From Bacteroides zhangwenhongii (GTDB lineage Bacteria; Bacteroidota; Bacteroidia; Bacteroidales; Bacteroidaceae): 64,000 nucleotides of DNA. Both the position numbers and the translations under genes were made by a program. Numbering within the stretch: the stretch's first letter is position 1; the number at the start of each line of letters is the position of its first letter. The stretch spans positions 3,968,001-4,032,000 of the forward strand of contig NZ_CP059856.1 in assembly GCF_009193325.2 (NCBI RefSeq). The letters run 5' to 3'. The notes beneath the pieces were generated by a model. That model worked only from the letters and a program-made list of their open reading frames with translations, did no database searches and had not been told where the DNA came from. Shown one piece after another: positions 6,970 to 24,212 of the stretch.

Positions 6970-6988
6970 ATATTCTTCTTTTCTACCA

Positions 6989-9208
6989 TCATTGCTTCGG
7001 AGTGGCCCCCATTTCAAAAACTAATTCACCACCAGCCATTATATCAGTGTACAAGATATAAGGTTTGGTATATTCACAGCCATTCAATGTAATTTTCCTT
7101 ATATATTTATTCAGGATAGAATTATTTTTCGCTATAAGAACCAGTTTTCCTCCAGGTACAGTTATTTCAACTCTATCGAACAATGGAGTTCCGAACCAGT
7201 AACGGGCACTCGCTGGTTCTACCTGATAGAATCCCAATGCAGAAAGTACATACCATGCAGACATTTGACCGACGTCTTCATTACCACATAAACCATCCGG
7301 AGCTGCGTGATAAAGTGAAGTAAGTACTTCTCGGACACGGGCTGCAGTTTTCCAAGGCTGACCAAGCATAGAGTAAAGATAAAGAATATGATGCCCCGGT
7401 TCATTGCCATGAGCATATTGCCCTATCAATCCCGAAATATCGGGAGAGCCCCCCGCTCCCACTATTTCGCTTAACACAAACAATGAATCCAGTTTTTCAA
7501 TGCATTTATCACGACCTCCAAAACATTCTGACAGTCCACTTATGTCATGGGGAACTAACCACGTATATTGCCAAGCATTCCCCTCACAATAATCATCCGC
7601 TCTGTGTTGGGATGCGAATGGATCAAAAGGTGTCCGCCAATTTCCATTACTGTCTTTTCCACGGACAAATCCAGTTGATTCATCAAAATAATTACGGTAC
7701 GAATGAGAACGTTCGGTGAAAAGACGATAGTCATCATCCTTTCCCAAATGATTGGCTGCAGCAGCGACAGCAGCATCCGCTATGGCATATTCCATATCGT
7801 AGGCAATAGCTTCTTGAAATAAATCACAAGGAATATAGCCATACTGCTTTCTAAGCGAACCACCACGTCCATCATGATTTGCCGTCATCTTTATAGCAGT
7901 GAAAGCACGTTCCATATCAATGTCTTTAAATCCCTTTACAATGGCATCTGCCACTACAGGTATAGCAGGATTCCCTACCATACAGTCCGTCTCATTCCCC
8001 CATAAGTGCCACACGGGTAGACGTCCTTGCTTATCATAAATATCCAGCATGGAATTGATAATATCCGGCATTCTGTCAGGATGAAGAATAGTCATCAATG
8101 GCATTGCCGCACGATATGTATCCCATAGTGAAAATGTGGTATATGCAGTATTTGAAGAATTAACATCACTGTAAATGGAAGGAGCTACCATCGTATGATA
8201 CAAAGCTGTATAAAATATCCGTAGATAACTTTTGCTTGCCGTATGAATACGTACTTTACCAAGCTCCTCATTCCATGCAAGATTAGCAGCTGCCACAGTC
8301 TTGTCAAAGTCCCATTCCGCAAGTTCCGCCAACAAATTTTTCTTTGCTCCTTCCACTGATACCGAAGATAAAGCTATTTTCAGAAGAATCTGCTCTCCTT
8401 TTTCCGTAGAGAACGAAGCACGACCATATCTGCCACTGTTTCCATGTAAATCAAAACTAGTGAAAGGTTTAGAAAATTGAGCAGCGAAATAGACATACTG
8501 GTCGCTTGCCCAACCTGTTGATCTACGATAACCCACCACCATATCTGTTCCTTCCACTGTCATAGATACCTCACGCACTTGGTCTGAACCGATACCGTTT
8601 TCCAAATCAATTACGATAGCTGCTTCCTGTGAATCGGGGAAAGTATAGCGATGAAAGCCTACACGCTTTGTGGCAGTAAGCTCTGCCAATACATTATAAC
8701 GGAGTAAAGGGACAGAGTAATAACCCGGATGAGTAATTTCCTTACTACGGTCGGCATACGACCAAAGCCCTGACGTCTGGTCGCTCGCCTTACCACGGGC
8801 GTATGTCACGTCACCAATCACCGGCATGACAGTGATGTCTCCCAAATCCCCGGCTCCCGTTCCGCTCAAATGAGTATGTGAAAAACCTATCACTGTATTG
8901 TCAGAGTCATGATAGCCAGAACACCAATCCCAGTCCGTCGGTATACTTGTAGGGCCTAGTTGCACCATACTGAAAGGAACATTAGCTCCAACAAAAACAT
9001 GACCATGTCCTCCACTACCGATTTTCGGATCAACGTATTGTGTCACTCCACCGGGGATTGCTTTCCATGCTTCACATTCTGCCAAATGGTTCATTTCAAC
9101 CCCTGTATCCGGCAGTATAGTCAGTTCTTCTACCGACTTCGAGTCCGAACACGCAGCAAACGTCAGAATGGCGGCCATTATTATCTTATATGTTTTCAAT
9201 CTTTCCAT
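6989..9208 (-). CDS. GH92 alpha-mannosidase, lipoprotein form
   Basis: A second GH92 enzyme of about 739 residues. The ATG at 9206-9208 (MERLKTYK) is preferred over an upstream TTG three codons earlier; AAGAGAAA lies 9-16 nt before it. The signal sequence ends in a lipobox, TFAAC, with the cysteine about residue 20, so it is a lipoprotein and may face the outside. The calcium/mannose-site motifs are canonical: YVDPKIGSGGHGHVF, CEGNAW with E542, QYAHGNEPGHHILYLY, and GNEDVGQMSAWY with E644-D645. It is divergent from its neighbour at 4672-6969, suggesting different linkages or cell locations. Part of the alpha-mannan operon. Confidence 0.94.
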   Translation of the reverse strand: MERLKTYKIIMAAILTFAACSDSKSVEELTILPDTGVEMNHLAECEAWKAIPGGVTQYVDPKIGSGGHGHVFVGANVPFSMVQLGPTSIPTDWDWCSGYHDSDNTVIGFSHTHLSGTGAGDLGDITVMPVIGDVTYARGKASDQTSGLWSYADRSKEITHPGYYSVPLLRYNVLAELTATKRVGFHRYTFPDSQEAAIVIDLENGIGSDQVREVSMTVEGTDMVVGYRRSTGWASDQYVYFAAQFSKPFTSFDLHGNSGRYGRASFSTEKGEQILLKIALSSVSVEGAKKNLLAELAEWDFDKTVAAANLAWNEELGKVRIHTASKSYLRIFYTALYHTMVAPSIYSDVNSSNTAYTTFSLWDTYRAAMPLMTILHPDRMPDIINSMLDIYDKQGRLPVWHLWGNETDCMVGNPAIPVVADAIVKGFKDIDMERAFTAIKMTANHDGRGGSLRKQYGYIPCDLFQEAIAYDMEYAIADAAVAAAANHLGKDDDYRLFTERSHSYRNYFDESTGFVRGKDSNGNWRTPFDPFASQHRADDYCEGNAWQYTWLVPHDISGLSECFGGRDKCIEKLDSLFVLSEIVGAGGSPDISGLIGQYAHGNEPGHHILYLYSMLGQPWKTAARVREVLTSLYHAAPDGLCGNEDVGQMSAWYVLSALGFYQVEPASARYWFGTPLFDRVEITVPGGKLVLIAKNNSILNKYIRKITLNGCEYTKPYILYTDIMAGGELVFEMGATPKQ

Positions 9209-9225
9209 TTTTATCAAATTTCTCT

Positions 9226-10995
9226 TTAGAAAGTTAATACAGGGGTGGGATCTTCTCCATAGTCCTTGTAACCTTTGCGGGCCGCTGATGCATCTTCGAT
9301 ATCGTATATTCCGTAATAACCTTTGCTATTGGTCACGTTTCTTTCCGTGCTTGTTCCCAAGTGTCGCCAATGATGGCTATCCCTTCTCCATAATTCTGCA
9401 TCGGAACATTCCTGAAGACGCTCTTTTATACCTATGTCATGCGCTTCGGCAACTGCTTCCATCTGCACTTTAGAACCCAGATACCAGCCACTAGTTCCTT
9501 CGGGGGCCGTCCGGATAGTATAGTTTGTAGCCCGGTAGATATGTGTATAGTTATCATCAGACAAGGTGATACCTTTTAATTTCGCATGATTCAAAATCAT
9601 TTTAGTATTTGCATAACCACACCAATCGTCAGGGTGTTCGTGCGTGCCAACCAATTCTTTCCGATAGTTCTCCGTACACCATTCTTTGATAGAGCCGAAT
9701 TGAATACCAGAAGGATCGGCAGCAAATACATATCCATGAATCTCTGTCAATTTACCATCATAGTCACTGATATTGTCACCTTGTCCTGCCCCCACATGGA
9801 AAATAATTCCCGAACAGTCATTCTTATCTCCGGTCAGATATTCGGAATAGGTATTATCTTTAAAATAAAAATCAAGGACATTAGGAGCCTTATTTTTCAG
9901 TTTCAAATTAGTATCCGAATCAATGCCTGTCAAGGAGCAGCAAAAATAGCCTTTTTTCTCTGTCACTTTCAAATCTTCGGAAACAGCCCCTTCCACAACG
10001 AATGCTCCTCGACTACAAGGTTTCTTATCAGCTGCAATTTTATATTTTACAGTGCACGCAGTCCCTACCCGATAGCACCCTTCGTCAAGAGATAAGACAT
10101 TTCCCGCCTCATCGGACACTGTAACATCAGTGTAGCAATCATCCTGTTCGATAGATAGTTCCCACAGGACTTTTACTTGCCCCAAGTCATAGATATGATT
10201 AGAGAGTGTCGTTTCCTTGAAATCAGACAAATTTTTCGTCAGCTCCGTACCATTACTCATTTTTAATATCAAAGTCACACCTTGTGAAAAGGTGACAGGA
10301 AGGGTTACAAAATAGTATACTCCTTTTTCCAATACAGCACCGTTGTTCTCAAGCGTAACCGTGCTTTTGCCATCAGTAACATTCTGCACCAACGATTCAT
10401 CGCCATCATTCCACCCGACAGTAAATTTACCTGCCAGTACTTCATTATTGTTACCTTTCAATGTGACAGACTTTATCCCAGCTTCTTTCAACTCAAATCT
10501 CAACAATGCGCATACATTCCTGAAAATAAAAGATTTCTTCTCCAAAGTCGTTCGGGATACCATGACACTAAGGTCTGTATCAAATCCATCCGCTACCGGT
10601 TTTTGAATATCCGGGAGCACGGTTGTGATATTCTTTCCATTCAGAGCGACATCTGCGTTATATGGATACAGCGAGTAATATTCGGCAACTTCGTCCGCTT
10701 TTCCTGTGAAGGTCACCGCTTCACCGCCCGAAGCGGTCATATATTCCTTGTTTTCATTTCCGTATAATACACTGATTCGGTCGCCTGCCACCCATTCTAC
10801 CTTTGTGCCGCCTGTCAATACGGTTCTTGAAAGATCATTACCTGTTTCGATACCGTTCAAAGTGGCTGAAAAAGTGACTTCACCGGAGAGAGTGGCATCG
10901 TCCTCCATCTCCTTCGTTGCATGGTCCGAGCAAGAAGCTGCCGCCATGGATACCATGGCGAACAGCAAACATTTCATATATTTCTTCATTATCAT
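9226..10995 (-). CDS. Fimbrillin-like lipoprotein, candidate surface glycan-binding protein
   Basis: A 589-residue lipoprotein (MVSMAAASC lipobox). Residues of about 35-280 resemble the Mfa/fimbrillin-like family: an early RTVLTGGTKVEWVAGDRISV motif followed by SLYPYN. The C-terminal 150 residues look like the DUF1566/FISUMP-type fold, with SGWYLGSKVQMEAV and the HWRHLGTSTERN region. It carries no hydrolase motif. Its place directly after SusC, SusD and a LamG lipoprotein suggests a surface glycan-binding role, which is inference. The start ATG overlaps the stop of the preceding gene in ATGA, so translation is probably coupled. An alternative start is two codons downstream. Confidence 0.65.
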   Translation of the reverse strand: MIMKKYMKCLLFAMVSMAAASCSDHATKEMEDDATLSGEVTFSATLNGIETGNDLSRTVLTGGTKVEWVAGDRISVLYGNENKEYMTASGGEAVTFTGKADEVAEYYSLYPYNADVALNGKNITTVLPDIQKPVADGFDTDLSVMVSRTTLEKKSFIFRNVCALLRFELKEAGIKSVTLKGNNNEVLAGKFTVGWNDGDESLVQNVTDGKSTVTLENNGAVLEKGVYYFVTLPVTFSQGVTLILKMSNGTELTKNLSDFKETTLSNHIYDLGQVKVLWELSIEQDDCYTDVTVSDEAGNVLSLDEGCYRVGTACTVKYKIAADKKPCSRGAFVVEGAVSEDLKVTEKKGYFCCSLTGIDSDTNLKLKNKAPNVLDFYFKDNTYSEYLTGDKNDCSGIIFHVGAGQGDNISDYDGKLTEIHGYVFAADPSGIQFGSIKEWCTENYRKELVGTHEHPDDWCGYANTKMILNHAKLKGITLSDDNYTHIYRATNYTIRTAPEGTSGWYLGSKVQMEAVAEAHDIGIKERLQECSDAELWRRDSHHWRHLGTSTERNVTNSKGYYGIYDIEDASAARKGYKDYGEDPTPVLTF

Positions 10996-12446
10996 TTATT
11001 AATAGGTTTCCAGGTAAAGTTTTCCGCACCACCTTTCAGAACAGCCGTATATCTGCCTGTCAGGTCTTTGAATTCTGTTTTTGTCATATCCCGATCTGTC
11101 TCGGAGATTACGAAATCCCAGGCGCAGACCAAATTCGGGTCAGCAGGATCGACTGTACAGTTTCCTTCCGCTGATGCTTTTATTTCGTCCGCAGTACGCG
11201 CTTTTTTCCAGATACGCATATATTTAATAGAACCTTTAAAATATTCCATACGGGTTCCGTCCGCTTTCAGACGGCAGAAAGCAGTCATAGGTATTTGAGC
11301 CTGATGGTAAGAGTCAGCTGTATATACCCAGCGGCGTTCATTCTGTCCGATACGGATGGATTTTCCCTTCTTCTCGCCATTGTAAAACATTCTAAAACGT
11401 TCGTCCTGATCTTCGCCCGGCACTCCGTCTTCAGCATATACGATGGCATAATGCATCCATGTCTTATACCCCAGTAAAGGAGCTCTGTAATACGGTTCCT
11501 CGAGTACGATTTTACCGTCTTCGTCAATAGGAATCGACGCCCGGATCAAGTCGTCACTTTCGCCCGTATGGAAACGGGAATAGATGCGCCATCCGCCCCA
11601 GGGCTCATCGTTGCACGCTGACAGATAAGTACTGTTATCCTCATGCTGCTTGGTGCAATATTCGTCGATTTTCACCCACAATTCAATGGTCAGAGCCGTA
11701 TGTTGTGTTTCACCGAAGTCGGCAAATTCCTTATGATAACCGAAATCAATATATCCGCCGTTGTTGCCGTCTACCACCAAGTTGTAGAATGTTTCGGTTT
11801 CAATCTGCGTCTCGCGGAACGAGTCAATCTCCGCATCCGCCTGTTGAATGGCTTCTTCTACCAAGGCGTTCGTCAGGGGGATGCTTCCCGAAAATGCTTT
11901 GTCGATCAGTTCCGTGAGTTCCCGGATGGCAGCGTTCAATATAGATTTGCTGCTTTCGGGATACGTGCCCGGTTCCGTGCCGTAGGTGGAAGTTTCCAGT
12001 ATATTCTGCAATTCGGAGAGTTTGTTCTTCAGTTGCTGCAAATTTCTCTGTTCCTCGGAAACATCGAGGATAACGGAGTCTTTAAACTTCTTCATGGCTT
12101 CTTCCGCTTTTTCGACAAGGGTGTCTACAGTTTGCTGGTCGGTAGTTTCCCCGTTGTTCAGGCGACTGACGAAATCATCAATTTCGGCTATGGTCGTTTC
12201 AAGAATCGCTTTACTCTTTTCAGGATAAGTACCCGGTTCTGTGCCGTAAGTAGAGTTTTTTAATAGATAATCCACGACATTCCGTTCTTCAGTCAGTTGG
12301 GTGATATACCGCTCGCGATTGTTATTTTCATCATCGTCCGAACATCCTGAAAACAGTATGCAAGAAACCATACATAGACAACCCAACAAAATTACCCATC
12401 CACTCATTCCGATTTGATTCAATACTTTTCTCATTTTATTTTTCAT
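10992..12446 (-). CDS. LamG/ConA-like lipoprotein with duplicated helical repeat (DUF4972-type)
   Basis: A 484-residue lipoprotein with lipobox LFSGC (Cys35). After an acidic linker come two helical repeats about 78 residues apart, each carrying STYGTEPGTYPE (near 65 and 143). From about residue 225 a concanavalin-like (LamG/Laminin_G_3) domain begins: FYNLVVDGNNGGYIDFG, ALTIELWVKIDEYC, YMRIWKKARTADEI. This arrangement matches DUF4972 proteins of Bacteroides SusCD loci. The lectin-like fold and position right after SusD suggest a surface glycan-binding protein, the helical repeats acting as a stalk. No enzyme motif is seen. It starts 8 nt after the SusD stop and overlaps the next gene by 4 nt. 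Confidence 0.75.
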   Translation of the reverse strand: MKNKMRKVLNQIGMSGWVILLGCLCMVSCILFSGCSDDDENNNRERYITQLTEERNVVDYLLKNSTYGTEPGTYPEKSKAILETTIAEIDDFVSRLNNGETTDQQTVDTLVEKAEEAMKKFKDSVILDVSEEQRNLQQLKNKLSELQNILETSTYGTEPGTYPESSKSILNAAIRELTELIDKAFSGSIPLTNALVEEAIQQADAEIDSFRETQIETETFYNLVVDGNNGGYIDFGYHKEFADFGETQHTALTIELWVKIDEYCTKQHEDNSTYLSACNDEPWGGWRIYSRFHTGESDDLIRASIPIDEDGKIVLEEPYYRAPLLGYKTWMHYAIVYAEDGVPGEDQDERFRMFYNGEKKGKSIRIGQNERRWVYTADSYHQAQIPMTAFCRLKADGTRMEYFKGSIKYMRIWKKARTADEIKASAEGNCTVDPADPNLVCAWDFVISETDRDMTKTEFKDLTGRYTAVLKGGAENFTWKPINK

Positions 12447-12454
12447 TTAAAAGG

Positions 12455-14359
12455 TTAAACATTAGCACTCCAACCTGGATTCTGAACCAGTTCTTTATCA
12501 ATATCAATGTCACCTTGCGGAATTGGGAAAAAATACATTTTCTTCTCAAATATTCTATTTTCAAACCAGGTACGTTTATAAAAGTCATTACCGTTTCCAT
12601 TCACATACATACCATAAAGTGGCATATTCTCTGTTTCTTCGGCAATACCCCAACGACGAACATCAAAATAACGACTGCTTTCGAAAGCTAGTTCCACTCT
12701 CCTCTCCGCTCTAATTGCCTCCCGCATTTCATTTTGGGTAGATGGAACAGGTAACTGCCCGACTTTAGACCCGTAAGTAGGAATTCCTGCTCTTTCACGA
12801 ATCAGATTCAAATAAGTCAGAATATCAGCATGGGTAGGTTCACATTCATTAAGTGCCTCTACATAATTAAGATAGACCTGAGCTAAACGCAACATAATAC
12901 AAATCTGTTTCCCCGTATTCCAAGCCCCCAAAGGCGCATTCTTCCTTACACAATAACCTGTCGGCGGGCATTCTCCACCATGTAATCCCGAATTTCCGTC
13001 GTAACTAAAGTCGGAATAGAAAGCGCCTTCTTCTGTATTTAGCCATTTCTGACCGGAGAAAGTTATATTTACATAAAAACGAGGTTCACGTCCCACCCAA
13101 GCTTTCAGTACTCCATTGGGAGCCAATATGGTTCCTGTTTCATCTACATAGCTTTCAGAAGAGAAACCACTATCCTCATAACCTGTATTAGGATTGAGAA
13201 CAGGCGTTTTACCATTGTCTGTATATCCACTAATAGGTAATTTACCATTCGCCATGAAAAAAGCATCCACCATCTGTTGGGAAGCGCCCAATCCGCCAGA
13301 TGCTCGGTAACCACTGCCTACGGCACCGGTATGTCTCGGAGTACGGTCATATTGCATCAATGAATAATCAGTGTTAATACGGTAGAATATCATTTCCGTA
13401 TTAGTGAAATCTTCTCCTCTCACAGCATCACGACAAGACAAATAGGCATTTAATACACCGTTTGTATAAACTTTGGTTAAATCATAATTTCCCGGAACGA
13501 ACCTATCAATGAATGCTTTGGAAGCTGTAGCAGCCCTTCTCCATTTCGCTTTCACCGCTTCATCCGAGATGTCTTCAGGAAAAAGTTTCTTTCCATCTTT
13601 ATTCCGTAGCTGGGCAACAAAGGAATTTTTTCCGTTATATAGGTCACTTGCAGCATATTGTAACACTTCTGCTTTAAAAGCCATCACAATGCTGTTGTCT
13701 ATTCTTCCACAATTGTAAGTAAGCGATTTCTCTGGCAGACAACCACTATCTAATACTTTATCAAATTCAGAAACAATATATTCCACACATTCCTCTACGC
13801 TGTTTCTAGGTAACTGTACTTTTTCTAAAGGAGCATCCATACTGATTGGATCATCAGACAAGATTGGTATCGGTCCATAGATACGTAGTAAGTAGAAGTA
13901 ATACATAGCACGCAACGCACGGGCTTCTTCAATCCATTGCGCCAACAGATTTTGTTCCATATCCTTACATTGGGGAGCACCCTGTATAAAACGTCCTGCA
14001 GCACTAATTCCTGCATAATATTTTTCCCAATAGGATGAAACTATAGACGATTTCGGAGTAATGGTATTGTTATTGACTAAATGTGATGGCACAAAATCCC
14101 AATAGTATTCAGCCTCATCACACCCGGCAGTCCATATGCCAGGAGTAGTATGCCTTCCATCCGCCGCCAAACGTTGGGCAAATTCATCTGGCAGATAGAC
14201 ATATACAGTAGCTAAAGCCTTCTCTGTAGAGGCTTTTGACTCAAACAAGTCATTATAAGTCAAACGGTCTGTCGGCATTTGATCAAAAAAATCCGAACAT
14301 GAGGTCTGACACACCAACATGATTGACAAACTTAATAAAGTAATATATTTCCTTTTCAT
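12455..14359 (-). CDS. SusD-family glycan-binding lipoprotein of the alpha-mannan locus
   Basis: A RagB/SusD outer-membrane lipoprotein of about 634 residues that partners the upstream SusC to import oligosaccharides. The start at 14359 (MKRKYITLLS) is chosen because it gives a proper lipobox (VCQTSC, Cys21) and lies 4 nt after the susC stop; the longer frame to 14422 would overlap susC. SusD hallmarks are CSDFFDQMPTDRLT, WIEEARALRAMYYFYLLRIYGPIP in the TPR region, MLRLAQVYLNYVEALNE, AIRAERRVELAFESSRYFDV and the C-terminal FPIPQGDIDIDKELVQNPGW. The protein is long for the family. The glycan bound is inferred from the operon. Confidence 0.95.
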   Translation of the reverse strand: MKRKYITLLSLSIMLVCQTSCSDFFDQMPTDRLTYNDLFESKASTEKALATVYVYLPDEFAQRLAADGRHTTPGIWTAGCDEAEYYWDFVPSHLVNNNTITPKSSIVSSYWEKYYAGISAAGRFIQGAPQCKDMEQNLLAQWIEEARALRAMYYFYLLRIYGPIPILSDDPISMDAPLEKVQLPRNSVEECVEYIVSEFDKVLDSGCLPEKSLTYNCGRIDNSIVMAFKAEVLQYAASDLYNGKNSFVAQLRNKDGKKLFPEDISDEAVKAKWRRAATASKAFIDRFVPGNYDLTKVYTNGVLNAYLSCRDAVRGEDFTNTEMIFYRINTDYSLMQYDRTPRHTGAVGSGYRASGGLGASQQMVDAFFMANGKLPISGYTDNGKTPVLNPNTGYEDSGFSSESYVDETGTILAPNGVLKAWVGREPRFYVNITFSGQKWLNTEEGAFYSDFSYDGNSGLHGGECPPTGYCVRKNAPLGAWNTGKQICIMLRLAQVYLNYVEALNECEPTHADILTYLNLIRERAGIPTYGSKVGQLPVPSTQNEMREAIRAERRVELAFESSRYFDVRRWGIAEETENMPLYGMYVNGNGNDFYKRTWFENRIFEKKMYFFPIPQGDIDIDKELVQNPGWSANV

Positions 14360-14363
14360 ATTC

Positions 14364-17300
14364 TTAGAAATTAAAGTTGATACCAATGGAATAAGTAGAA
14401 ATATTAGGATAGGAAGTACCATTATTGGTATTCAATTCCGGGTCCCATAACTTAAACTTACTAATCGTAAACAGATTTGTACCCATCGCATAGATAGAAG
14501 CACCTTTCAATAAGACAGCGTTTGTCCATCTTTTTGGGAGATGCCAAGTGATCTGCAAGGATTTCAGACGTAAGAAGCTAACATCTCTTTGCCACCAAGT
14601 ACTTGTCTTAAAATTATTTTCATTTTTATCCGAACCATAGGCAAGACGAGGATAGAAAACATCCTGTCGCGGGTTGTTCTCCGTCCAACGATCTTTGATA
14701 TTAGCATAAAGGTTACCTTCACCACCCGAACCGGAGAAAGGCTGTATTCCAAGTCCATTCAAACATCTGTCTGCTTGCGCTACTCCCTGAAAAAGGGTAC
14801 TAATGGCAAAGTTTTTATATTGAAGATTAAAACCAAATCCATAGACAATAGAAGGTACGTCACCACGTCCTATCTTTGTTTCGTCATAAACATCAATTTG
14901 TCCGTCTCCATTCAAATCACGGTATTTGATGTCTCCTGCATAGATTGTACCAAATTGTTTCGGAAAAGGTCGAGCTGTATTCTCTTTTTCCACAGCAGGC
15001 AATGCTTCCCATGCGTTGATTCGGTCAACTTCTTCTTGTGTATAAAGTCCATCAGCTATCAATCCCCAACGTGACAAAGTACTGTGCCCTCTTTTATCCA
15101 TCCACGGATATTGCTGGGTAGGCTGATCATTCTCTATCACTTCATTCTTGGCATAAGTAAAGTTACCACGAAGAGAGAGTGCCCAGTTCTTATTGAACTG
15201 TTTATTATATTCGAGATCAATTTCTATACCTTTATTATCTACAATCCCGAGATTACCAACAGGGGTAGAAGTGATTCCGATAAAACCGGGTACTGCTCCA
15301 CGGTCAAGAAAAATACCGGTACGATGTTCTTTGTACAAATCAAGAACCAATGAAAGGTCATCATTCAAGAATTTAAGGTCAAAACCTAAGTCCTGCTTGT
15401 GTGATTTTTCCCAAGTCACTTTTACAGCTTCGTTTTTCACCTTATAACCATCCACTTTACGTCGGTCAGTACCAAAAGTATAGCCGTAGCTACTATTGTA
15501 TTGAAGTGCTTCCATATACAAAAAACGGTTAGGTGTTGCTTGATTACCAATCATACCATTGGTGTAACGGACCTTAAAGAAAGAAATAACGGATTGCAAA
15601 GGTTTCCAAAATTTCTCATTGGAGAGTACCCACCCCACTCCGAAGGCAGGGAAAACTCCGTAACGGTTAGACGGATCAAAGTTTTCGGAGCCGTTGATAC
15701 CGATATTAAATTCCGCGAAGTAGCGATCATCCCATGAATAAGTGGCACGTCCGGCAAAACCACGGGAACGGTAAGGAAGTCCGGCTATCAGATCAATACC
15801 CTCGGTTGTTATAACTTTGTCTTCCTGATTAAACAAAAACAGCCCGCCTACGCGATGTCTTCCAAATGTACGGGAGTAATTCAGTGATGCTTCTAAGTAA
15901 TATTTTCTGTTACCAGAACTTTCAACAGCAAAATCCAACGTCTTTGATCCTTCATAAGTTTGCGACAAAATGGGAAACCCGTATTTGTCGTAAGGATTAT
16001 TTTTATCCACCCAATAATAGGTAGATTCTGCCTTCTTTTGTTTCACAGTACGTGAATTATAAGTATCAAAAGCAAACATACCTGTCAAACTCAATCCTTT
16101 CGTGATAAATCCCAAGTCTTGGGTTAAACGGAGATTAGAGTAAATTTGACTATCGGTAACAGTTCGAAATCCTCTTTTCGTAGCACCGACATAGGGGTTG
16201 TTAAATCCACTATTAGGCTGATTGTAAGGGATATAATCCTTTCCGTTAACATAGAACATGACTGGATAATCTACAGGTGAAGTAGTCATAGCTACGCGGA
16301 ATATATCAGAAGTAGATTCGTAAGGTTTCCTACCTTCGCCCAAATAACCTGACGCACCTATATCCAATTTAGTAGTCGGAGTAACATTAATATTCAGGTT
16401 AGTAGTGAAGTTATAACGAGTATATCCAATCTTAGAATCATAAGATTCATTTGGATCTGTCTTTATCAACCCTTTTTCGTTATAGTAGCTTGCTGATGCA
16501 TAGTAGTTCACATTTTGTCCACCACCTCTTACGTTAATGTTGGCACGGCGGTTGTGTCCAAAATCATCAAAGACTTCGTTCATCCAATCTACATTAGGAT
16601 AAAGCACAGGATCAGTTCCCAAACGAGTATTTATAACCTCAGCTTCAGAGTAAATGGGCTCGGATCCACGATTTCTGCGAGCTTCGTTCACGGCTTCCAT
16701 GTAAGAGGCTCCATCAGCCAATTTTGGAATTTTAGTAAGGCGTGTGACACTTTCATAATAGTCTACGCTGACAGAAGGTTTTCCAGCAATACCAGGTTTT
16801 GTCTTGATTAGGATTACTCCGTTAGCTCCCCGTACTCCGTAGACAGCAGTGGCTGAAGCATCTTTCAGAATAGTGAAAGATTCAATATCTTCCGGGTCTA
16901 TATTATTAAAAGAACGTTCTACCCCATCAACCAAGACTAAGGGAGAAGAACTTCCCATCGTAGAAATACCACGTATCCAAATATCGGCATTATCTTTACC
17001 TGGTTCACCTGAACGTTGTACGGCTACTACTCCGGCAAGACGTCCTGCCAATGAAGTGCTCAAGCTAGCAGTAGGCTGCTTAATATCACCTAGTTTCAGA
17101 TTGGATTGCGAACCAATAGTACTGATACGACGCTGGCTACCGTAACCCACTACTACCACTTCTTCAAGTTCCGATTTTGATTCTTTCAGTGTTACGTCTA
17201 TTACTGTGTTAGAACCAACAATTACCTCCTGGCTATCAAAACCAATATAAGAAAATTTCAGTGTCGAGCGACTATTCTTTACTGTTAATGAGTAGGTTCC

Positions 17301-17474
17301 TTCGATTCCAGTCAATGTACCGTTCTGTGTCCCCACTTCCATAATATTAACTCCTACCAAAAGCTCTCCTTTTTCATCGACTACACGACCTGTTATCTTT
17401 TTGGAAGATTGTGCAAATGTCATGATACACAGGTGAATAAGTATGAATGCAAACGCTAATCTTGTATTTTTCAT
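14364..17474 (-). CDS. SusC-family TonB-dependent transporter of the alpha-mannan locus
   Basis: A 1036-residue outer-membrane SusC/RagA barrel. I start it at 17474 (MKNTRLAFAF), 31 nt after the GH76 stop; the longer open frame has no plausible signal peptide. Order: signal peptide to about residue 21, carboxypeptidase-like domain (ITGRVVDEKGELLVGVNI), TonB-box-like EEVVVVGYGSQ, plug with ILKDASATAVYGVRGANGVI, then the barrel ending YSIGINFNF. There is no N-terminal STN domain, which fits control by the separate SARP-type regulator rather than by an ECF sigma/anti-sigma relay. It should import mannan oligosaccharides captured by the SusD just downstream. Confidence 0.95.
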   Translation of the reverse strand: MKNTRLAFAFILIHLCIMTFAQSSKKITGRVVDEKGELLVGVNIMEVGTQNGTLTGIEGTYSLTVKNSRSTLKFSYIGFDSQEVIVGSNTVIDVTLKESKSELEEVVVVGYGSQRRISTIGSQSNLKLGDIKQPTASLSTSLAGRLAGVVAVQRSGEPGKDNADIWIRGISTMGSSSPLVLVDGVERSFNNIDPEDIESFTILKDASATAVYGVRGANGVILIKTKPGIAGKPSVSVDYYESVTRLTKIPKLADGASYMEAVNEARRNRGSEPIYSEAEVINTRLGTDPVLYPNVDWMNEVFDDFGHNRRANINVRGGGQNVNYYASASYYNEKGLIKTDPNESYDSKIGYTRYNFTTNLNINVTPTTKLDIGASGYLGEGRKPYESTSDIFRVAMTTSPVDYPVMFYVNGKDYIPYNQPNSGFNNPYVGATKRGFRTVTDSQIYSNLRLTQDLGFITKGLSLTGMFAFDTYNSRTVKQKKAESTYYWVDKNNPYDKYGFPILSQTYEGSKTLDFAVESSGNRKYYLEASLNYSRTFGRHRVGGLFLFNQEDKVITTEGIDLIAGLPYRSRGFAGRATYSWDDRYFAEFNIGINGSENFDPSNRYGVFPAFGVGWVLSNEKFWKPLQSVISFFKVRYTNGMIGNQATPNRFLYMEALQYNSSYGYTFGTDRRKVDGYKVKNEAVKVTWEKSHKQDLGFDLKFLNDDLSLVLDLYKEHRTGIFLDRGAVPGFIGITSTPVGNLGIVDNKGIEIDLEYNKQFNKNWALSLRGNFTYAKNEVIENDQPTQQYPWMDKRGHSTLSRWGLIADGLYTQEEVDRINAWEALPAVEKENTARPFPKQFGTIYAGDIKYRDLNGDGQIDVYDETKIGRGDVPSIVYGFGFNLQYKNFAISTLFQGVAQADRCLNGLGIQPFSGSGGEGNLYANIKDRWTENNPRQDVFYPRLAYGSDKNENNFKTSTWWQRDVSFLRLKSLQITWHLPKRWTNAVLLKGASIYAMGTNLFTISKFKLWDPELNTNNGTSYPNISTYSIGINFNF

Positions 17475-17505
17475 ATTTTCTTTAATTACAATAGTTCTAC
17501 ACTCT

Positions 17506-19143
17506 CTATTTCTGAATAAGCGGAAGATTGACCGCAATGGATACCGCTGTAGAAGTTCCCCAAGGATCATTACTGTAGCGCACATCCTTATCGCTTGCTT
17601 TATACACAAAGTTTTCGGCAGACTTTTCTTCCCACACTGTCCATATGATACCTTTTGAATTTCGGTTATTATAGGCTTGCAGAGCACTTGCTTCCATCCA
17701 CGGAAGATATTGAGTATCGTTCATTATGTTAATGTACGAACGTAGATATCTCATCAATATTCCTTTAAATCCACGACGGTCATTGTCCGAACGTTCGTCC
17801 GGTGCATTCAATATTCCATTATCATCGCTGAAATGTTCTATAGTATAACGGGCCGTCATCTGTGCATTAGTTTTGTACAATGCATCTTTATAGTGTTGAT
17901 ACAGCATGAGGGAAGCACCTAGAAAAGTTCCCTGATTGTAGGTTGAAGCCCATTTCCAAGGAGAAAGACTAGTGAGCGTTACACAGTCGTACACCATACC
18001 AGTAGAAGATTCATAAAGATAGATTGACTGTTTTTCATACAAGTTTTTCGCTTTTTCATAATAGGTTGCATCTCCCGTAGCCTGTGCGAGATAACAAGAT
18101 GCAACCATTGCCGGACAATTAATGCAAGAATTGGTTTTATCACGTTCGGCTTCTTTTTCACACCAACGCAGTACACCTTCGGGCAGCATTAAGGCTCTTG
18201 CATACATTTGATCGAAATTTTCCTTGGCTACATCAAGATATTCTTGTGTTCCAAACAACAGATAAGCCCGTACACAAGCAATTACCATCCAAGTAATATC
18301 ATCATTGAAGGGATTATATAACCAGTTCTTCTGGTTCTCGTCTACAAAATTGATGTACAGTTGGTGAAACATTTCTTTATATGAAGGATCTTGAGTAGTT
18401 TCGTAGGCATCCAACACAATTTCAAACATTTCGGCGTCCTGCCATTGGTGGCTGGCGTTGTTCAACCGTTCAGCATCACTCAAGGTATAGCCCGCATTAT
18501 TTTGCGACTTTTTATAGTATTGTGCTTTCCAGGAACGAACTATTTCGTCACGCATCACCGAAGTAAATTTATTGGGCGCTTCCTGCACTCTTTCCAATTT
18601 CCATATCTGCTTATCGGCTTGGTCACCGGTTCTTTTGATATAGGACTGTATATTTGTACCATCCTCACCGCCTCCTATTTCCAAATAGAGCCTTTCACCA
18701 CTAGCAAGGGAAGAAGGACTTATGTAATAGCAATCCGGTCCGACTTGCTCCGCTTTGGTTATTGTCCATTTATAAGTATAATCATTTTCTTTCCCATATT
18801 GGCGCAAGCGTGCACCCAAGGAAACAGGTGATTGTATGTGTACAGACTTACCCGTGTATACGTTCGTCAAATAAAAATACACTCCAGTAGGATCTTTGGT
18901 TAGACGCCAACGTTGGGCATTCACTTTTGTATCAGTCCAAGCCACAATTTCTGTTCCCTCATCAAAAGAAGCGTTCCGAACGAACATACTTCTAGTTTCA
19001 TCGGAATAAGGAGATATTTTATAAACAGCTCCTGAAATAAGATCCGACGCCTGCGCTTCCTCTACCAGAGAAGATACTTCGCTAGCTGAGCATCCGGCCA
19101 ACATAGTCATGGCACTTAAAGCCCACAATGTGATTTTCTTCAT
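17506..19143 (-). CDS. GH76 endo-alpha-1,6-mannanase with N-terminal ricin-type lectin domain
   Basis: A 545-residue lipoprotein (lipobox MLAGC, Cys18) and probable cell-surface endo-enzyme. Residues of about 38-185 form a ricin-like beta-trefoil region with repeated QRWRL / YKWTI / KQIWKL motifs, likely a carbohydrate-binding module. The GH76 (alpha/alpha)6 domain follows, with the double-aspartate site in NPFNDDITWMVIA (D281, D282; one nucleophile, one acid/base by analogy with known GH76 enzymes) and NSCINCPAM. It should cut the alpha-1,6-mannan backbone outside the cell and feed the SusCD pair encoded downstream. It lies 39 nt after the GH92 stop. Lectin specificity is unknown. Confidence 0.92.
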   Translation of the reverse strand: MKKITLWALSAMTMLAGCSASEVSSLVEEAQASDLISGAVYKISPYSDETRSMFVRNASFDEGTEIVAWTDTKVNAQRWRLTKDPTGVYFYLTNVYTGKSVHIQSPVSLGARLRQYGKENDYTYKWTITKAEQVGPDCYYISPSSLASGERLYLEIGGGEDGTNIQSYIKRTGDQADKQIWKLERVQEAPNKFTSVMRDEIVRSWKAQYYKKSQNNAGYTLSDAERLNNASHQWQDAEMFEIVLDAYETTQDPSYKEMFHQLYINFVDENQKNWLYNPFNDDITWMVIACVRAYLLFGTQEYLDVAKENFDQMYARALMLPEGVLRWCEKEAERDKTNSCINCPAMVASCYLAQATGDATYYEKAKNLYEKQSIYLYESSTGMVYDCVTLTSLSPWKWASTYNQGTFLGASLMLYQHYKDALYKTNAQMTARYTIEHFSDDNGILNAPDERSDNDRRGFKGILMRYLRSYINIMNDTQYLPWMEASALQAYNNRNSKGIIWTVWEEKSAENFVYKASDKDVRYSNDPWGTSTAVSIAVNLPLIQK

Positions 19144-19182: not shown

Positions 19183-21462
19183 TCAGTGAGAAGTGGAAGC
19201 CAGAGGTTCGGCAGAAGGTGGGGCTGCCTCCAATGCAGCTCCCCATAACCTGTTTGCCTTGTTACCCATTACTAATTCTAACTTTCCACCTTTCATTATA
19301 TCTTTATGTTCGAACCACGGTTTATTCCATGGTTTACCGTTAAGCATTGCAGACTGAATGTATTTGTTCTCGTCCGAACAGTTTTCAGCTATGATTTCAA
19401 AGGTTTTCCCATTACCTAATGCTATCCTTACATGATTAAATAATGGAGAACCTATATTATAGGTTGGAGAGCCTGGAGTGACTGGATAAAAACCCATTGC
19501 TGAAAATACGACAAATGCACTCATTCCACCACCATCTTCATCACCTGGTACTCCCATCAAGTCGTTACGGAACCATTGCCTCATTAAAGAACGGATTCTT
19601 TTTTGAGTCATCCAAGGTTGACCAGCATAATTATAAAGATAGGGAATATGCAGACAAGGTTCGTTTGCCATTGAGAATTGCCCTACGTTTCCCGTATGAT
19701 CCGGAAGATGAGAATAGAAAGAAAATTTAGCTTCGCCTATTGGTTCTCTAAAAGTCTGATTCAGGTTATCTATAAATTTCTCGCGTCCACCCATCAGCGC
19801 GATCAAATCTGCCGGGTTGTGCTGTACATCCCAACGATAGATCCAGCCATTATTTTCTCCATAATAGTCACGTGCTCCCATACCACCGGAAAAACGGTAG
19901 TCAAAAGGGTAAATAAAGTCTCCTTTGTTGTCGCGAGGGTGGAAAAATCCAGTTTCGGCATTATATACATTGCGGTAGGAATAGGCAATTTTCATAAATT
20001 GTTCGTATTCGCCATTGTATCCGAATGTATGTGCTATTTGTGCCAGACACCAATTATCGTAACAATTACCAAGCATAACAGAGATAGCTTGGCGACGTTC
20101 GAAGCCATGTACACCTAAACATGTTTCTTCTTCACCCGGGTGGAGTGCAGGAAAATATCCGTATTGCTGATAGAAAGAATCGAGCTCTGTTAACGGCCCT
20201 TTCTGCCAAGGTAACAGGGTTTTCTCTGTAATAGCACCCTTACATGCTTTGTATGCTTGTTCTAAATCAATGTCTGTGATTCCCTTGCAGTAAGCATCCC
20301 ATATAGTAGCTACTGCATGATTTCCATTCATACGATGGCTGTCACCCGTTATTTCGGGGAAGGTGGGCATCCATCCGTTGGGCGATTGCTGTGCCATACG
20401 GATAAAAGAACTGACCATCGCACGTTCTTTTTCCGGTTCGATCAGAATCCGTAAAGGATGTACAGCACGATATGTATCCCAAATCCAGTCATCTGTATAA
20501 AAAGGAATTCCACCATCCATATGTATTTGATTGTCAAAAGCGCTGTAATAAGATCCGTCTTCGGATATGTTAATCATTCGTTCGTAAGTTCGATACAGCG
20601 AAGTGTAGAATATTACTTTTTGATCATCTGTCCCACCTTTTATTTCTATTTTTCCCAAAGTTTCGTTCCATATCTTCCGTCCGGTTTCTGCCACCTTATC
20701 TATATCGTACGTGTGGATTTCACGGCGCAGATTTTTCTTTGCTTGTTCTATACTGATAAATGAAATTCCGTATCGAAGAGTGATCTTTTTACAAGAACCG
20801 TAATCAAAGACTATAGCTGCATTTTCTCCGTCTACCCGTTGGCAAGCAGAATTCATTATTCCATTTTGCAAACCACCTTTGGAAATCGCTTCACAGTCTG
20901 ACTCCATAAAAAGATAGATTGTTGTTTTATCATCCAAATACTGACAACCACCTATTCCTTCATTATCTACGAATAAATAACCGTTCCGTGTGTTCAGTAT
21001 AATCTGGCTATTGGCTGCTCCTTCATAAGTAAAAGTATAAATACCGGACTGATAAGAAGGAGCAAAATCAACCAAAATATTATTTTCATCGAGGTAAACC
21101 TGATAATGATAGGGAGATATTTTCTCTCTGTCGTAAGAATAGTCCTGCACGGAAGAAATTCCTTCATTCAGTCCGCAAACAGGACTCAAGTTGAATGCCG
21201 AAGCTCCACGATGACTTGTCACTGCAATTGGAAGTCCATGACACAAATCGGAAGTGAAATCTTTCCGTTCAGGATATACACGCAACATTCCATTAGGCAA
21301 GTGAACTGTCGGATAAGTGGGAAACAATAAATGACTGATATTTCCCATATAAGGATTTACATAATCTACCGGTTCCGTCTTCTCCTTTGCGTAAGAAATG
21401 GATCCCAAAACAAAGAAAGAGAATACTCCAATAATCAACGCTGTCTTTCGTATGCTTTTCAT
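19183..21462 (-). CDS. Divergent GH92 alpha-mannosidase, first gene of the operon
   Basis: A third GH92 of about 759 residues, started at 21462 (MKSIRKTALIIG) to give a clean signal peptide ending near SISYA. It belongs to a different branch from the other two. The usual N-terminal glycine-rich pocket motif is replaced by YVNPYMGNISHLLFPTYPTV, the acid region is GENNGWIYRWD (E536 kept), HGNEP becomes MANEP, and the base region is GDEDGGGMSAF (D641/D643 kept, but Q and W of the common GQMSAW changed). Catalytic acids are present, so activity is expected, but the substrate pocket should differ. It is transcribed directly from the TACTTTTG promoter and SARP-like operator. Confidence 0.9.
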   Translation of the reverse strand: MKSIRKTALIIGVFSFFVLGSISYAKEKTEPVDYVNPYMGNISHLLFPTYPTVHLPNGMLRVYPERKDFTSDLCHGLPIAVTSHRGASAFNLSPVCGLNEGISSVQDYSYDREKISPYHYQVYLDENNILVDFAPSYQSGIYTFTYEGAANSQIILNTRNGYLFVDNEGIGGCQYLDDKTTIYLFMESDCEAISKGGLQNGIMNSACQRVDGENAAIVFDYGSCKKITLRYGISFISIEQAKKNLRREIHTYDIDKVAETGRKIWNETLGKIEIKGGTDDQKVIFYTSLYRTYERMINISEDGSYYSAFDNQIHMDGGIPFYTDDWIWDTYRAVHPLRILIEPEKERAMVSSFIRMAQQSPNGWMPTFPEITGDSHRMNGNHAVATIWDAYCKGITDIDLEQAYKACKGAITEKTLLPWQKGPLTELDSFYQQYGYFPALHPGEEETCLGVHGFERRQAISVMLGNCYDNWCLAQIAHTFGYNGEYEQFMKIAYSYRNVYNAETGFFHPRDNKGDFIYPFDYRFSGGMGARDYYGENNGWIYRWDVQHNPADLIALMGGREKFIDNLNQTFREPIGEAKFSFYSHLPDHTGNVGQFSMANEPCLHIPYLYNYAGQPWMTQKRIRSLMRQWFRNDLMGVPGDEDGGGMSAFVVFSAMGFYPVTPGSPTYNIGSPLFNHVRIALGNGKTFEIIAENCSDENKYIQSAMLNGKPWNKPWFEHKDIMKGGKLELVMGNKANRLWGAALEAAPPSAEPLASTSH

Positions 21463-21489
21463 TCTATTATAATTTATAAAATTGATAAG

Positions 21490-21497
21490 CAAAAGTA
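21490..21497 (-). promoter_or_regulatory. -7 box TACTTTTG of the alpha-mannan operon
   Basis: On the minus strand TACTTTTG matches TAnnTTTG. Transcription from it would start near 21484, giving a leader of about 22 nt before the GH92 ATG at 21462. No -33 TTTG is present, as expected of an activator-dependent promoter. Confidence 0.65.
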
Positions 21498-21507
21498 ATA
21501 TCAGCGT

Positions 21508-21536
21508 CTTAATCAGGTATTAATCACGACTTAATC
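21508..21536 (-). promoter_or_regulatory. Putative SARP-type operator: three GATTAA heptamers at 11-bp intervals
   Basis: On the minus strand GATTAAG (21536-21530), GATTAAT (21525-21519) and GATTAAG (21514-21508) are direct repeats separated by 4-bp spacers, an exact 11-bp period. The last one ends 10 bp upstream of the TACTTTTG box. Actinobacterial SARPs bind heptamer direct repeats with this period about 8 bp from the -10 box, and a SARP-domain regulator is encoded next door. Confidence 0.65.
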
Positions 21537-21677
21537 GACTAAATAAAAAGCTATAATAGGTTATATAAACATTTGAAAAACAACTTTTTAATTCATAATA
21601 TTTATTTTTAAAAAGAAAAGAAGATACTTCCTATACACAAAGATCCTACCTTTCTTTCTAACTATAATTTATTTCTG

Positions 21678-24212
21678 TTAATTGCCTATTATGTCAGTAT
21701 AATTAAAATCTGGTCTTACCCCAAGCACTCGAATATATTCTGCACAGAAATTTTCATAACATTGTTTTGCCAGACCTTTTTTACCTAAATGATAAAGAGC
21801 GTAACACTTATTTTGTATAGCAGTTTCGTCTGTCGAATCACAACTTAACATTGTTTCTGATAACTTCAGTAAAAGCATCAAGTCTTTGCTCTTTTTTACA
21901 AACTCATAAGCATCCAATAACACATCTGATAATAAAATCAGATATTCAGACTTAAATTTATCTGCCCATTCTTCTGTAATATCAGGTAATAACTCTCCTC
22001 TACTCCCTAATTCGGCAATTTTATTTAATAGTCCTACATTTATTTCACTGCCTTCCTTTACCATTCTCAGTAAGTCGCAAATCTCAATATAATCACAATT
22101 CACTGATGAATCTATTGTCATATACCAATAACTGTTCTTATAGGCAATATTGATTCCGCCAATTTCCTTTAATAACAATCGGAGTTTACTTATATTCACA
22201 TTTCTGTTATTAGTAGCATTACTCTTGTCCATATCCGACCAAAATATTTCATTTAGTTGTTCCGAGGTTATGCCATTAGCATTTTTATAGGAATATAACA
22301 ACATATATACAAACAAACTACGTAATATAAGAGTAAATCGAGAAGTTATATCATGCCCTTCCGAATCATTTACCTGAAAACCTCCCAATAAACGAATAAA
22401 AGAGGGCTGAATTAATTCTTTTTCCTTCACTTCTACAGTATAAAATGAGTTTTCATCTCTTCTTACAACATTTTTCTGCTTTCTCTTCCATAATATAACT
22501 AACACTGCCAATGTTCCCCCAATTCCAATAATCAAAATCAACCATATCCAACCTGTTGAATGCTTTTCAGGAACAGATTGAAGTACGTCTGATAAGTGCA
22601 AAACAGGATACCCTAATGTATATACCTCGACACAAGTTTTTCCGATGCCATCCTGATATGCTAAAACAGTAACTAATTCAGTGGTACCTTGATTATAAAA
22701 TAAAGTACAATAAGAACTGGTATCATGAAACTGATATGGTATAGAATCTGCCATATATGTTCGATCTGGTTTTTCAATTCCAAAACAGTTCAATCTGATT
22801 TGAGAAAATGCTCGATCATTAGCAAAAGAAAGTGCATAAATATGCTCTTTATCAAGATCTACTACCATTGCATTTCCAAATGCTTCCACCTTTGCATTAG
22901 AAAAAGTCCACAATTTTTGACTGCTCATCTTCTCAACATCTATGCAATGAAGATCATAATAATTCTCTGGGTTCCCTTCTTGTTTACCAGATTTGCTACC
23001 ATACCCTCCTAACAATAAAACCTTATTATTTCCCAAATATCCCATTGCCGCTAAATAACGAGGTTCAATCAAATGAGCAAGATCCTTTTGCTGCCAAGAT
23101 ATTGAATCAATGGAATGCATGAACAAGACCGAACTATAACGATAAAATCCATAGCCACCAAAAAGTATAACTTTTGCCAAATCAGGAATATAGCAGCTAC
23201 TATGATGCAGATACGAAAGAAGTATATCAGGAATAGCTCTTTCCCATTCATTTTTTTCAAAACTATAACGATTCAGTCGTTCTTGTTCTGCACTATAGGA
23301 AATCAACTCATCATGAACCGAATCATATACTAAACTGGAAGCAGCTGTAAAATAAGGATGCCCAGTATTTACAATAACAGTATCCAATCGTTCCCGTTCT
23401 ATGGAATATTGGTAAATAGTATCCTTTAAGGCTATAAACACCCCCCCATCTGTCGGACGTTGATATGGAGCAAATTGAAGAGAAGTCCCCGGTATAATAA
23501 ACGAAGCTTTTTTTCTCCACCGAATATGATGATCTATTTCCCAAATCCCATTTCGTACTGTAGCCCGGGAAGATTTAACCTCATCATAAACTTCATTATC
23601 TCCATGTTGTAATAAAGTCCATTTTCTCAAGAGTTCTCCTTTCAGATCTAAAATCCTTACATTACGCAAACTCATCGGAGCCACATCTGTACTTGGAAAA
23701 GATTGCCCGGTATGTAACCCAAAAGCTATACGAACATTATTCAATTGCGGCAACTTCACGGGAATACTCCATTCTTTTTCATTTAGAATACAGACAATTA
23801 ATTGCTTTTTATAGTTTAACTTAAGTTCTACTTGAAACCAATCCGAACTATTGAATTTAGGAATCGAATCTAAGTGTGATATATCTACCAGACTTTGATT
23901 TCCTTTCATCAAAAATAATTGGCTGTGGCTCCATCCTTTATTGGACAACAAGTCAATATTTAATGTATCATTTAAAATAACACGAACAATATACCCATAA
24001 TTATGCTCTTCATTGCGCAAATGAACATCAAAACCCAATGAAAAACCATCATGAAAAGAAAGTGGAGTATTCGGAGTTAAATTTAGCTCCGTCCGCTTTT
24101 CCGGAATCACTCTGTGAGCCTGGAAAAAGAGCCCTGTATTTGCCCTAACATACAGGACATTACATAAAAAAAATAACAGTAATATACAAACAATTGTACT
24201 TTTATTATTCAT
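21678..24212 (-). CDS. Membrane-spanning SARP-type regulator (ConA-like/Kelch-like sensor, TM, wHTH-BTAD)
   Basis: An 844-residue one-component regulator. Parts in order: signal peptide (1-24); lectin-like jelly-roll (about 30-200: FSLGFDVHLRN, VRIAFGLHTGQ); Kelch/galactose-oxidase-like propeller (about 235-530: VILFGGYGFYRYSS, VLLLGGYGSKSG); one transmembrane helix (about 553-575) followed by KRKQK; OmpR-type winged helix (about 604-705: FIRLLGGFQV, ITSEQLNEIFW, NVNISKLRLLLKEI); and a C-terminal helical BTAD (about 710-840). This is the DNA-binding plus BTAD layout of SARPs, so the protein probably senses glycan in the periplasm and activates transcription directly, without a kinase. It lies directly upstream of, and on the same strand as, the alpha-mannan operon. 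Domain calls are by eye; the N-terminal folds are less certain than the C-terminal half. Confidence 0.8.
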   Translation of the reverse strand: MNNKSTIVCILLLFFLCNVLYVRANTGLFFQAHRVIPEKRTELNLTPNTPLSFHDGFSLGFDVHLRNEEHNYGYIVRVILNDTLNIDLLSNKGWSHSQLFLMKGNQSLVDISHLDSIPKFNSSDWFQVELKLNYKKQLIVCILNEKEWSIPVKLPQLNNVRIAFGLHTGQSFPSTDVAPMSLRNVRILDLKGELLRKWTLLQHGDNEVYDEVKSSRATVRNGIWEIDHHIRWRKKASFIIPGTSLQFAPYQRPTDGGVFIALKDTIYQYSIERERLDTVIVNTGHPYFTAASSLVYDSVHDELISYSAEQERLNRYSFEKNEWERAIPDILLSYLHHSSCYIPDLAKVILFGGYGFYRYSSVLFMHSIDSISWQQKDLAHLIEPRYLAAMGYLGNNKVLLLGGYGSKSGKQEGNPENYYDLHCIDVEKMSSQKLWTFSNAKVEAFGNAMVVDLDKEHIYALSFANDRAFSQIRLNCFGIEKPDRTYMADSIPYQFHDTSSYCTLFYNQGTTELVTVLAYQDGIGKTCVEVYTLGYPVLHLSDVLQSVPEKHSTGWIWLILIIGIGGTLAVLVILWKRKQKNVVRRDENSFYTVEVKEKELIQPSFIRLLGGFQVNDSEGHDITSRFTLILRSLFVYMLLYSYKNANGITSEQLNEIFWSDMDKSNATNNRNVNISKLRLLLKEIGGINIAYKNSYWYMTIDSSVNCDYIEICDLLRMVKEGSEINVGLLNKIAELGSRGELLPDITEEWADKFKSEYLILLSDVLLDAYEFVKKSKDLMLLLKLSETMLSCDSTDETAIQNKCYALYHLGKKGLAKQCYENFCAEYIRVLGVRPDFNYTDIIGN

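Follow-up and report, generated by a model that had tools for sequence, protein, structure and literature searches.

A phased TTAA-cored repeat array before a Bacteroides alpha-mannan operon as the probable operator of an adjacent SARP-like regulator

Introduction

How is a Bacteroides promoter switched on that carries a -7 box and no -33 box? The question is raised by a 64,000-nucleotide stretch of Bacteroides zhangwenhongii DNA (assembly GCF_009193325.2, contig NZ_CP059856.1, positions 3,968,001 to 4,032,000; the window hereafter), in which three heptameric repeats lie in front of an alpha-mannan operon and directly downstream of a regulator gene. The initial annotation read these repeats as an operator in the style of the SARPs (Streptomyces antibiotic regulatory proteins) and took the upstream gene product for their SARP-domain binder. 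Our data support this interpretation, and we regard it as very probable that the upstream regulator uses the array as its operator, on which its SARP-type protomers would bind head to tail, activate transcription and replace the -33 contact. If true, a mechanism so far familiar from the control of antibiotics in actinobacteria extends to membrane-anchored sensors in another phylum, and a class of sugar-sensing switches becomes testable via a spacing that recurs beside many relatives in other Bacteroidota.

The array and its promoter

Read 5' to 3' on the minus strand, the array is GATTAAG-N4-GATTAAT-N4-GATTAAG, followed by N10 and then TACTTTTG, with a period of exactly 11 base pairs (bp); rereading the coordinates bore out the heptamers, their 4-bp spacers and the 10 bp to the -7 box. 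By sequence, the predicted box TACTTTTG (21497-21490) fits TAnnTTTG, the -7 consensus of Bacteroidota primary-sigma promoters according to PMC7366714, and the TTTG of such promoters near -33 was not found in the window promoter. As TTG occurs neither within the three repeats nor between them and the -7 box, the lack of a -33 box noted initially holds as well, and all these features of the window locus are confirmed as real. In the 215-bp gap between the regulator and the first operon gene (21463-21677; the GH92 ATG starts at 21462), period 11 is the best among periods 8-23, scoring 19 of 21 with a runner-up at 15. Dinucleotide-preserving shuffles of the gap reached 19 at period 11 once in 2000, and 48 of the 2000 reached it at one or another period in the range 8-22; because of the latter, the window gap alone is moderate, suggestive evidence only, and it is the relatives that decide.

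Those relatives include two orthologous promoters in which three units, the period of 11 and the 10 bp to the -7 box are all kept. In Bacteroides congonensis (regulator 85% identical) the promoter reads CGTTAAG-TTGT-GATTAAT-ACCT-GATTAAG-N10-TACTTTTG and in Dysgonomonas sp. BGC7 (54% identical), where a GH92 gene likewise comes first downstream, TATTAAG-TCGT-GGTTAAT-CTTT-GATTAAT-N10-TACTTTCG. A two-way promoter alignment finds the stretch from array to -7 box nearly constant and much of the remaining gap diverged, and the conserved blocks of the three-way alignment are the TTAA cores and the -7 box.

Recurrence near homologous regulators

Sixty genomes of the genus, the window's own included, were searched and homologs of the regulator found in 25. 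Counts come from set A (40 fetched loci plus the window, 41) and set B (28 of 32 further loci, six Dyadobacter among them), 69 loci in total; set B omits L072 (footprint only) and L074, L087 and L098 (places already in set A), and short or fragmentary homologs in G044, G046, G021 and G012:C12 were left out of the family counts. Related genomes in these counts are not independent, and the TTAA core was recognised partly in the same data later used for counting; its phasing to the -7 box, a control on hybrid two-component system (HTCS) loci and the tree label discussed below are partly separate checks. A first scan for three similar heptamers plus TAnnTTTG had returned only the window locus and one weaker case among 43 loci, and the core emerged once period-11 triples were viewed without the box requirement. 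What the relatives have in common is TTAA, with T or G as the usual next base. So the geometry of the SARP-style heptamer operator initially proposed does recur near homologs, albeit with no single heptamer in common: the shared element is a TTAA core that keeps phase with the -7 box.

TTAA pairs at a lag of 11 number 84 in set A and 58 in set B (about 11 and 8 expected), and over the 69 loci 141 compare with about 19 in shuffles, a comparison in which set A contributes 83 because gaps holding N were dropped. Triples at this lag amount to 26 in A and 22 in B, together 48 against about 0.3 in shuffles; at other lags from 6 to 25 there are at most 3 in A, and 6 (lag 7), 4 (lag 14) and 3 (lag 22) in B. 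Random regions hold 7 such pairs and 2 triples. Before boxes of the T[AT]nnTTTG type, TTAA peaks at gaps of 11, 23, 34 and 45 in set A and of 11, 22, 33 and 44 in set B, a series absent before such boxes in random regions. At least two exact units in register precede 58 of 438 boxes near regulators (56 distinct), and every one of these 58 faces a gene, as against 260 of 346 boxes without units. By comparison, units precede 2 of 177 boxes in random regions (both in region L110) and none of 97 at HTCS loci, which were 20 regions from two genomes (12 from the window's own, 8 from one other) without a single lag-11 TTAA pair; these larger regions were fetched because fragments L126-L155 had given only 7.4 kb of intergenic DNA. 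The register rule labels 45 of 69 loci (27/41 in A, 18/28 in B) and 2 of 20 random regions. With a leave-locus-out matrix, 49 of 69 loci score above 15.0 and 1 of 20 random regions passes that value, a test not fully independent since near relatives in other species remain, though near copies were collapsed.

A divergent regulator clade (L069-L071) has 11-bp phased TTAA runs, with no recognised -7 box at 11 bp.

Register and regulator phylogeny

The arrays come in two registers, 11/22/33 (the window array, Dysgonomonas and others) and 11/23/34. The strict 11-bp spacing initially described holds at the window array and at those of its two array-bearing orthologs and not for most array-bearing Bacteroides paralogs, which have a 12-bp first step and often a TTnnTTTG box. 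A tree of 68 C-terminal regulator domains, 20 and 25 of them labelled by register and the 23 unlabelled rows left aside, shows 5 changes of label, compared with a mean of 15.0 and a minimum of 9 in 300 shuffles; after dropping ten hand-picked near copies there are still 5 changes against 11.6 (minimum 7). Register thus follows regulator phylogeny, an association that links the operator with the regulator and not with promoters at large.

The -33 position

TTG at a gap of 17-22 before the -7 box occurs in 4 of 56 array promoters and in 18 of 63 controls; for Bacteroides only, the figures are 3/40 against 18/63, or 21/82 with the same box rule. Within gap 18-20, which is clear of the units, it is found in none of 56 array promoters as opposed to 13 of 63 controls. 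With TTG so rare at -33 and the second unit lying across that position, the regulator very probably binds head to tail and stands in for the -33 contact.

A SARP-like fold in a predicted membrane protein

The model of the whole regulator is of moderate confidence (mean pLDDT 79.6, pTM 0.45, 14 sequences) and runs from an N-terminal helix, probably a signal peptide, through a strand-rich part, a beta-propeller (residues ~233-534), a long helix (554-574) and a low-confidence linker to the cytoplasmic domain. The propeller resembles many kelch proteins, and Pfam Kelch_4 scores above its cut-off. Consistent with the SARP domain initially assigned, the predicted fold of the C-terminal part is nearest AfsR and EmbR, with a winged helix followed by an all-helical BTAD. 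In Pfam searches at E<=10 only kelch-type families appear, plus a sub-threshold BTAD in the C-terminal piece, and no receiver domain; nor does the protein combine histidine kinase, receiver and AraC parts as an HTCS does. Among the 51 of 52 non-redundant C-terminal domains that were aligned (L017 was left out), BTAD is matched in 21 (best E 4.3e-6) and Trans_reg_C in 13 (best 9.4e-7) at E<=1. A PDB sequence search did not place the domain and AfsR is reached by profile at E 1.6 only; with BTAD below threshold, the regulator is thus SARP-like by predicted fold and remote by sequence.

Proposed mechanism and alternatives

From this we infer the following mode of action at the window array, as to membrane topology and ligand no less than to binding, activation, protomer number and polymerase contact. 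The kelch-type part would sense a glycan signal in the periplasm, probably a mannan oligosaccharide, and pass it through one transmembrane helix to the cytoplasmic SARP-type domain. Several protomers would then bind head to tail along a single face of the double helix, each on its own 11-bp unit with a TTAA core, the last unit being 11 bp from the -7 box. Lying over the site that a -33 box would have filled, they would recruit RNA polymerase and make up for the lost sigma contact, as AfsR is known to do in Streptomyces.

Several observations weigh against this reading. Twenty-four of the 69 loci have no array by the register rule, and 20 of 69 score under the second-best of the 20 random regions with the matrix. 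The initial annotation had asked for conservation among orthologous promoters, and the array kept in B. congonensis and Dysgonomonas is absent from the ortholog in Bacteroides sp. GM023 (68%), where the gene after the regulator lies on the opposite strand, the neighbours differ and the mannan operon is not adjacent. In the window protein BTAD (PF03704) does not reach its Pfam cut-off (13.0 against 22.1 bits). The -33 depletion may in part be a mechanical effect of the TTAA unit that fills the outer end of the tested interval, and in Flavobacterium johnsoniae no -33 motif was identifiable at all (PMC7366714). Genome-wide, the triplet TTAA-N7-TTAA-N7-TTAA has 65 matches at 57 places in 16 genomes, only modestly above the 45 of its reversed control, so that the signal lies in location; within 15 kb an exact triplet accompanies 16 of 36 listed homologs. 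A stricter pattern, which required TAnnTTTG in addition to two TTAA units with an 11-bp step, was rejected: over 60 genomes it does not rise above background (13 matches, 11 for the reversed control), and only the window's match adjoins a known homolog. Finally, register-12 arrays occur without a regulator nearby. As for location, 31 of the 57 triplet places are within 15 kb of a homolog. A four-unit version has 7 matches at 6 places (reversed control 3), of which five have a homolog within 15 kb and the remaining one is inside a tandem repeat, and a period-10 version has 1 match (reversed control 29).

Might the array be the regulator's site and yet serve repression, with protomers spanning the promoter and leaving it once glycan is sensed? 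The units do sit inside the promoter region, where a bound protein could block polymerase, but the scarcity of -33 TTG (4/56 against 18/63) is what activator-dependent promoters would lead one to expect, and the closest fold, AfsR, is an activator (PMC10936776); to our minds, repression is improbable. AT-rich phased tracts can bend DNA, and phased TTAA might instead be a promoter element in its own right (curved DNA, an UP-like element or an alternative sigma site) in need of no SARP-type regulator, as some arrays far from any detected regulator and the higher count of the reversed pattern AATT with period 11 (45) than with period 10 (29) could suggest. Such an element should not, however, be nearly absent at the same -7 boxes of random regions (2/177), wholly so at HTCS loci of two genomes (0/97) and follow regulator phylogeny in its register, and we give it rather less credit than repression. 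That the three heptamers came to repeat by chance in an AT-rich intergenic stretch, as the 48 of 2000 shuffles that reach the score at some period might have implied, is hardly credible given an array conserved in B. congonensis and a Dysgonomonas and recurring family-wide in phase with the -7 box.

Among known regulators, the actinobacterial SARPs (AfsR, ActII-ORF4, DnrI, PimR) resemble the window system in that direct repeats with a period of 11 bp lie shortly before the -10/-7 element, in a poor or missing upstream hexamer and in a C-terminal fold like that predicted here. According to PMC10936776, AfsR occupies two 11-bp repeats as a pair of neighbouring protomers, of which the upstream one overlaps -35, and adapts sigma to a poor promoter (see also the review PMC10972967); the AfsR contacts are at -27 and -38, where the first T of the two proximal window cores would fall if the TA of the -7 box is aligned with -12/-11. 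In contrast to these SARPs, the window regulator is a predicted membrane protein with a kelch-type part, its host belongs to the Bacteroidota with their different primary sigma factor, the family core is TTAA with a 12-bp first step at many promoters, the distance from heptamer to -7 box is 10 bp instead of 8 bp to -10, and the family appears to control glycan loci rather than antibiotic clusters. EmbR of Mycobacterium tuberculosis has an additional C-terminal FHA domain (PMC10936776), whereas the extra domains of the window regulator are N-terminal and come with the transmembrane helix. Like the window regulator, HTCS and SusR-like regulators of Bacteroides govern adjacent glycan operons, though the alpha-mannan HTCS motif is reported to consist of two 16-bp sites with a 5-bp spacer.

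OmpR/PhoB-type winged-helix regulators likewise bind 11-bp repeats head to tail, and ToxR/CadC-like proteins share the layout of membrane-spanning one-component activators; the window protein differs from both in its BTAD-like TPR domain and in that no receiver was found. The labels SARP or OmpR have probably been given to Bacteroides regulators of this kind already. Among the matches listed, no open-licence title or start of an abstract was on SARP-type operators in Bacteroides, subscription literature falling mostly outside that scope.

Of the 55 genes beside arrays other than the window's, 19 are annotated: GH92 (5), GH2 (2), GH31, GH3, GH95, GH99, an MGH1-like hydrolase, sulfatases (2), an esterase-type protein, SusC, a Laminin_G protein, a DUF5703 protein and one with a secretion tail as its sole match. 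With neighbours so varied, the regulator class seems to serve many glycans. We lean, with some reserve, towards the broader view that Bacteroidota carry a phylum-wide class of transmembrane SARPs which read glycans by kelch-type domains and activate -33-less promoters through three to five protomers on -7-phased TTAA units, the first step being 11 or 12 bp depending on the clade; the actinobacterial mode of activation would thus operate at the inner membrane and together with another sigma factor. Regulators of glycan loci would thereby gain, as a class, a readable operator, which makes regulons predictable and testable, distant targets included.

Genes of the locus

The gene content (GH92, GH76, SusC, SusD, GH92, GH92, GH125) marks the locus as an alpha-mannan operon, with the substrate deduced from the enzymes (Table 1). 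Past the operon end, on the opposite strand, lies an AAA-ATPase_like/PDDEXK_9 gene (window 468-2219).

Table 1. Positions, in window coordinates, of the array, its promoter and the neighbouring genes.
Feature	Position	Strand	Remarks
Distal repeat unit GATTAAG	21530..21536	-	read in sequence; TTAA kept in B. congonensis and Dysgonomonas
Middle repeat unit GATTAAT	21519..21525	-	read in sequence; overlaps the expected -33 place (as estimated from the -7 box)
Proximal repeat unit GATTAAG	21508..21514	-	11 bp from the end of its TTAA to the -7 box
-7 box TACTTTTG	21490..21497	-	fits consensus TAnnTTTG (PMC7366714)
GH92 gene, first of operon	19183..21462	-	
GH76 gene with ricin-type lectin domain	17506..19143	-	
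SusC-like TonB-dependent receptor	14364..17585	-	from first ATG; open reading frame opens at GTG 17687
SusD-like protein	12455..14422	-	
DUF4972/Laminin_G protein	10992..12446	-	probable surface glycan-binding protein
589-aa protein	9226..10995	-	without Pfam or NCBIfam match
Second GH92 gene	6989..9217	-	
Third GH92 gene	4672..7017	-	
GH125 alpha-mannosidase gene	3206..4669	-	
844-aa membrane regulator, proposed array binder	21678..24212	-	directly upstream of array, same strand as operon
Kelch-type beta-propeller of regulator, residues ~233-534	22611..23516	-	presumed periplasmic sensor
Single long hydrophobic helix, residues ~554-574	22491..22553	-	taken as transmembrane helix
Cytoplasmic SARP-type part, residues 604-844	21681..22403	-	predicted winged helix plus TPR-like BTAD

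Arrays and regulators elsewhere

The window's own genome holds a second SARP-type regulator (G000:C1:208678-209382, L063), near which no array was found and whose open frame, only ~490-500 aa, is too short for a whole sensor. It also has two places with the exact triplet, the window array and one before a GH99-like gene (G000:C1:4859088; L125:1500-1530). The latter is of the register-12 type, with TTAA 11, 34, 45 and 56 bp before TTACTTTG, and precedes a 326-aa reading frame that has no Pfam match of its own and is 55% identical to a GH99-family protein. No SARP-type regulator was found in the 55 kb searched around it, and we read this array as a target in trans or a relic. Similar arrays exist in three other genomes (L168, L171, L172), and a Prolixibacteraceae array before a GH99-family gene (L089:7414-8706) offers a parallel. 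Two near-identical register-12 arrays in a further genome (G057:C1:200714 and 203566; L174) lie at least 225 kb from any detected regulator, in a region that also holds a TolB-like propeller gene.
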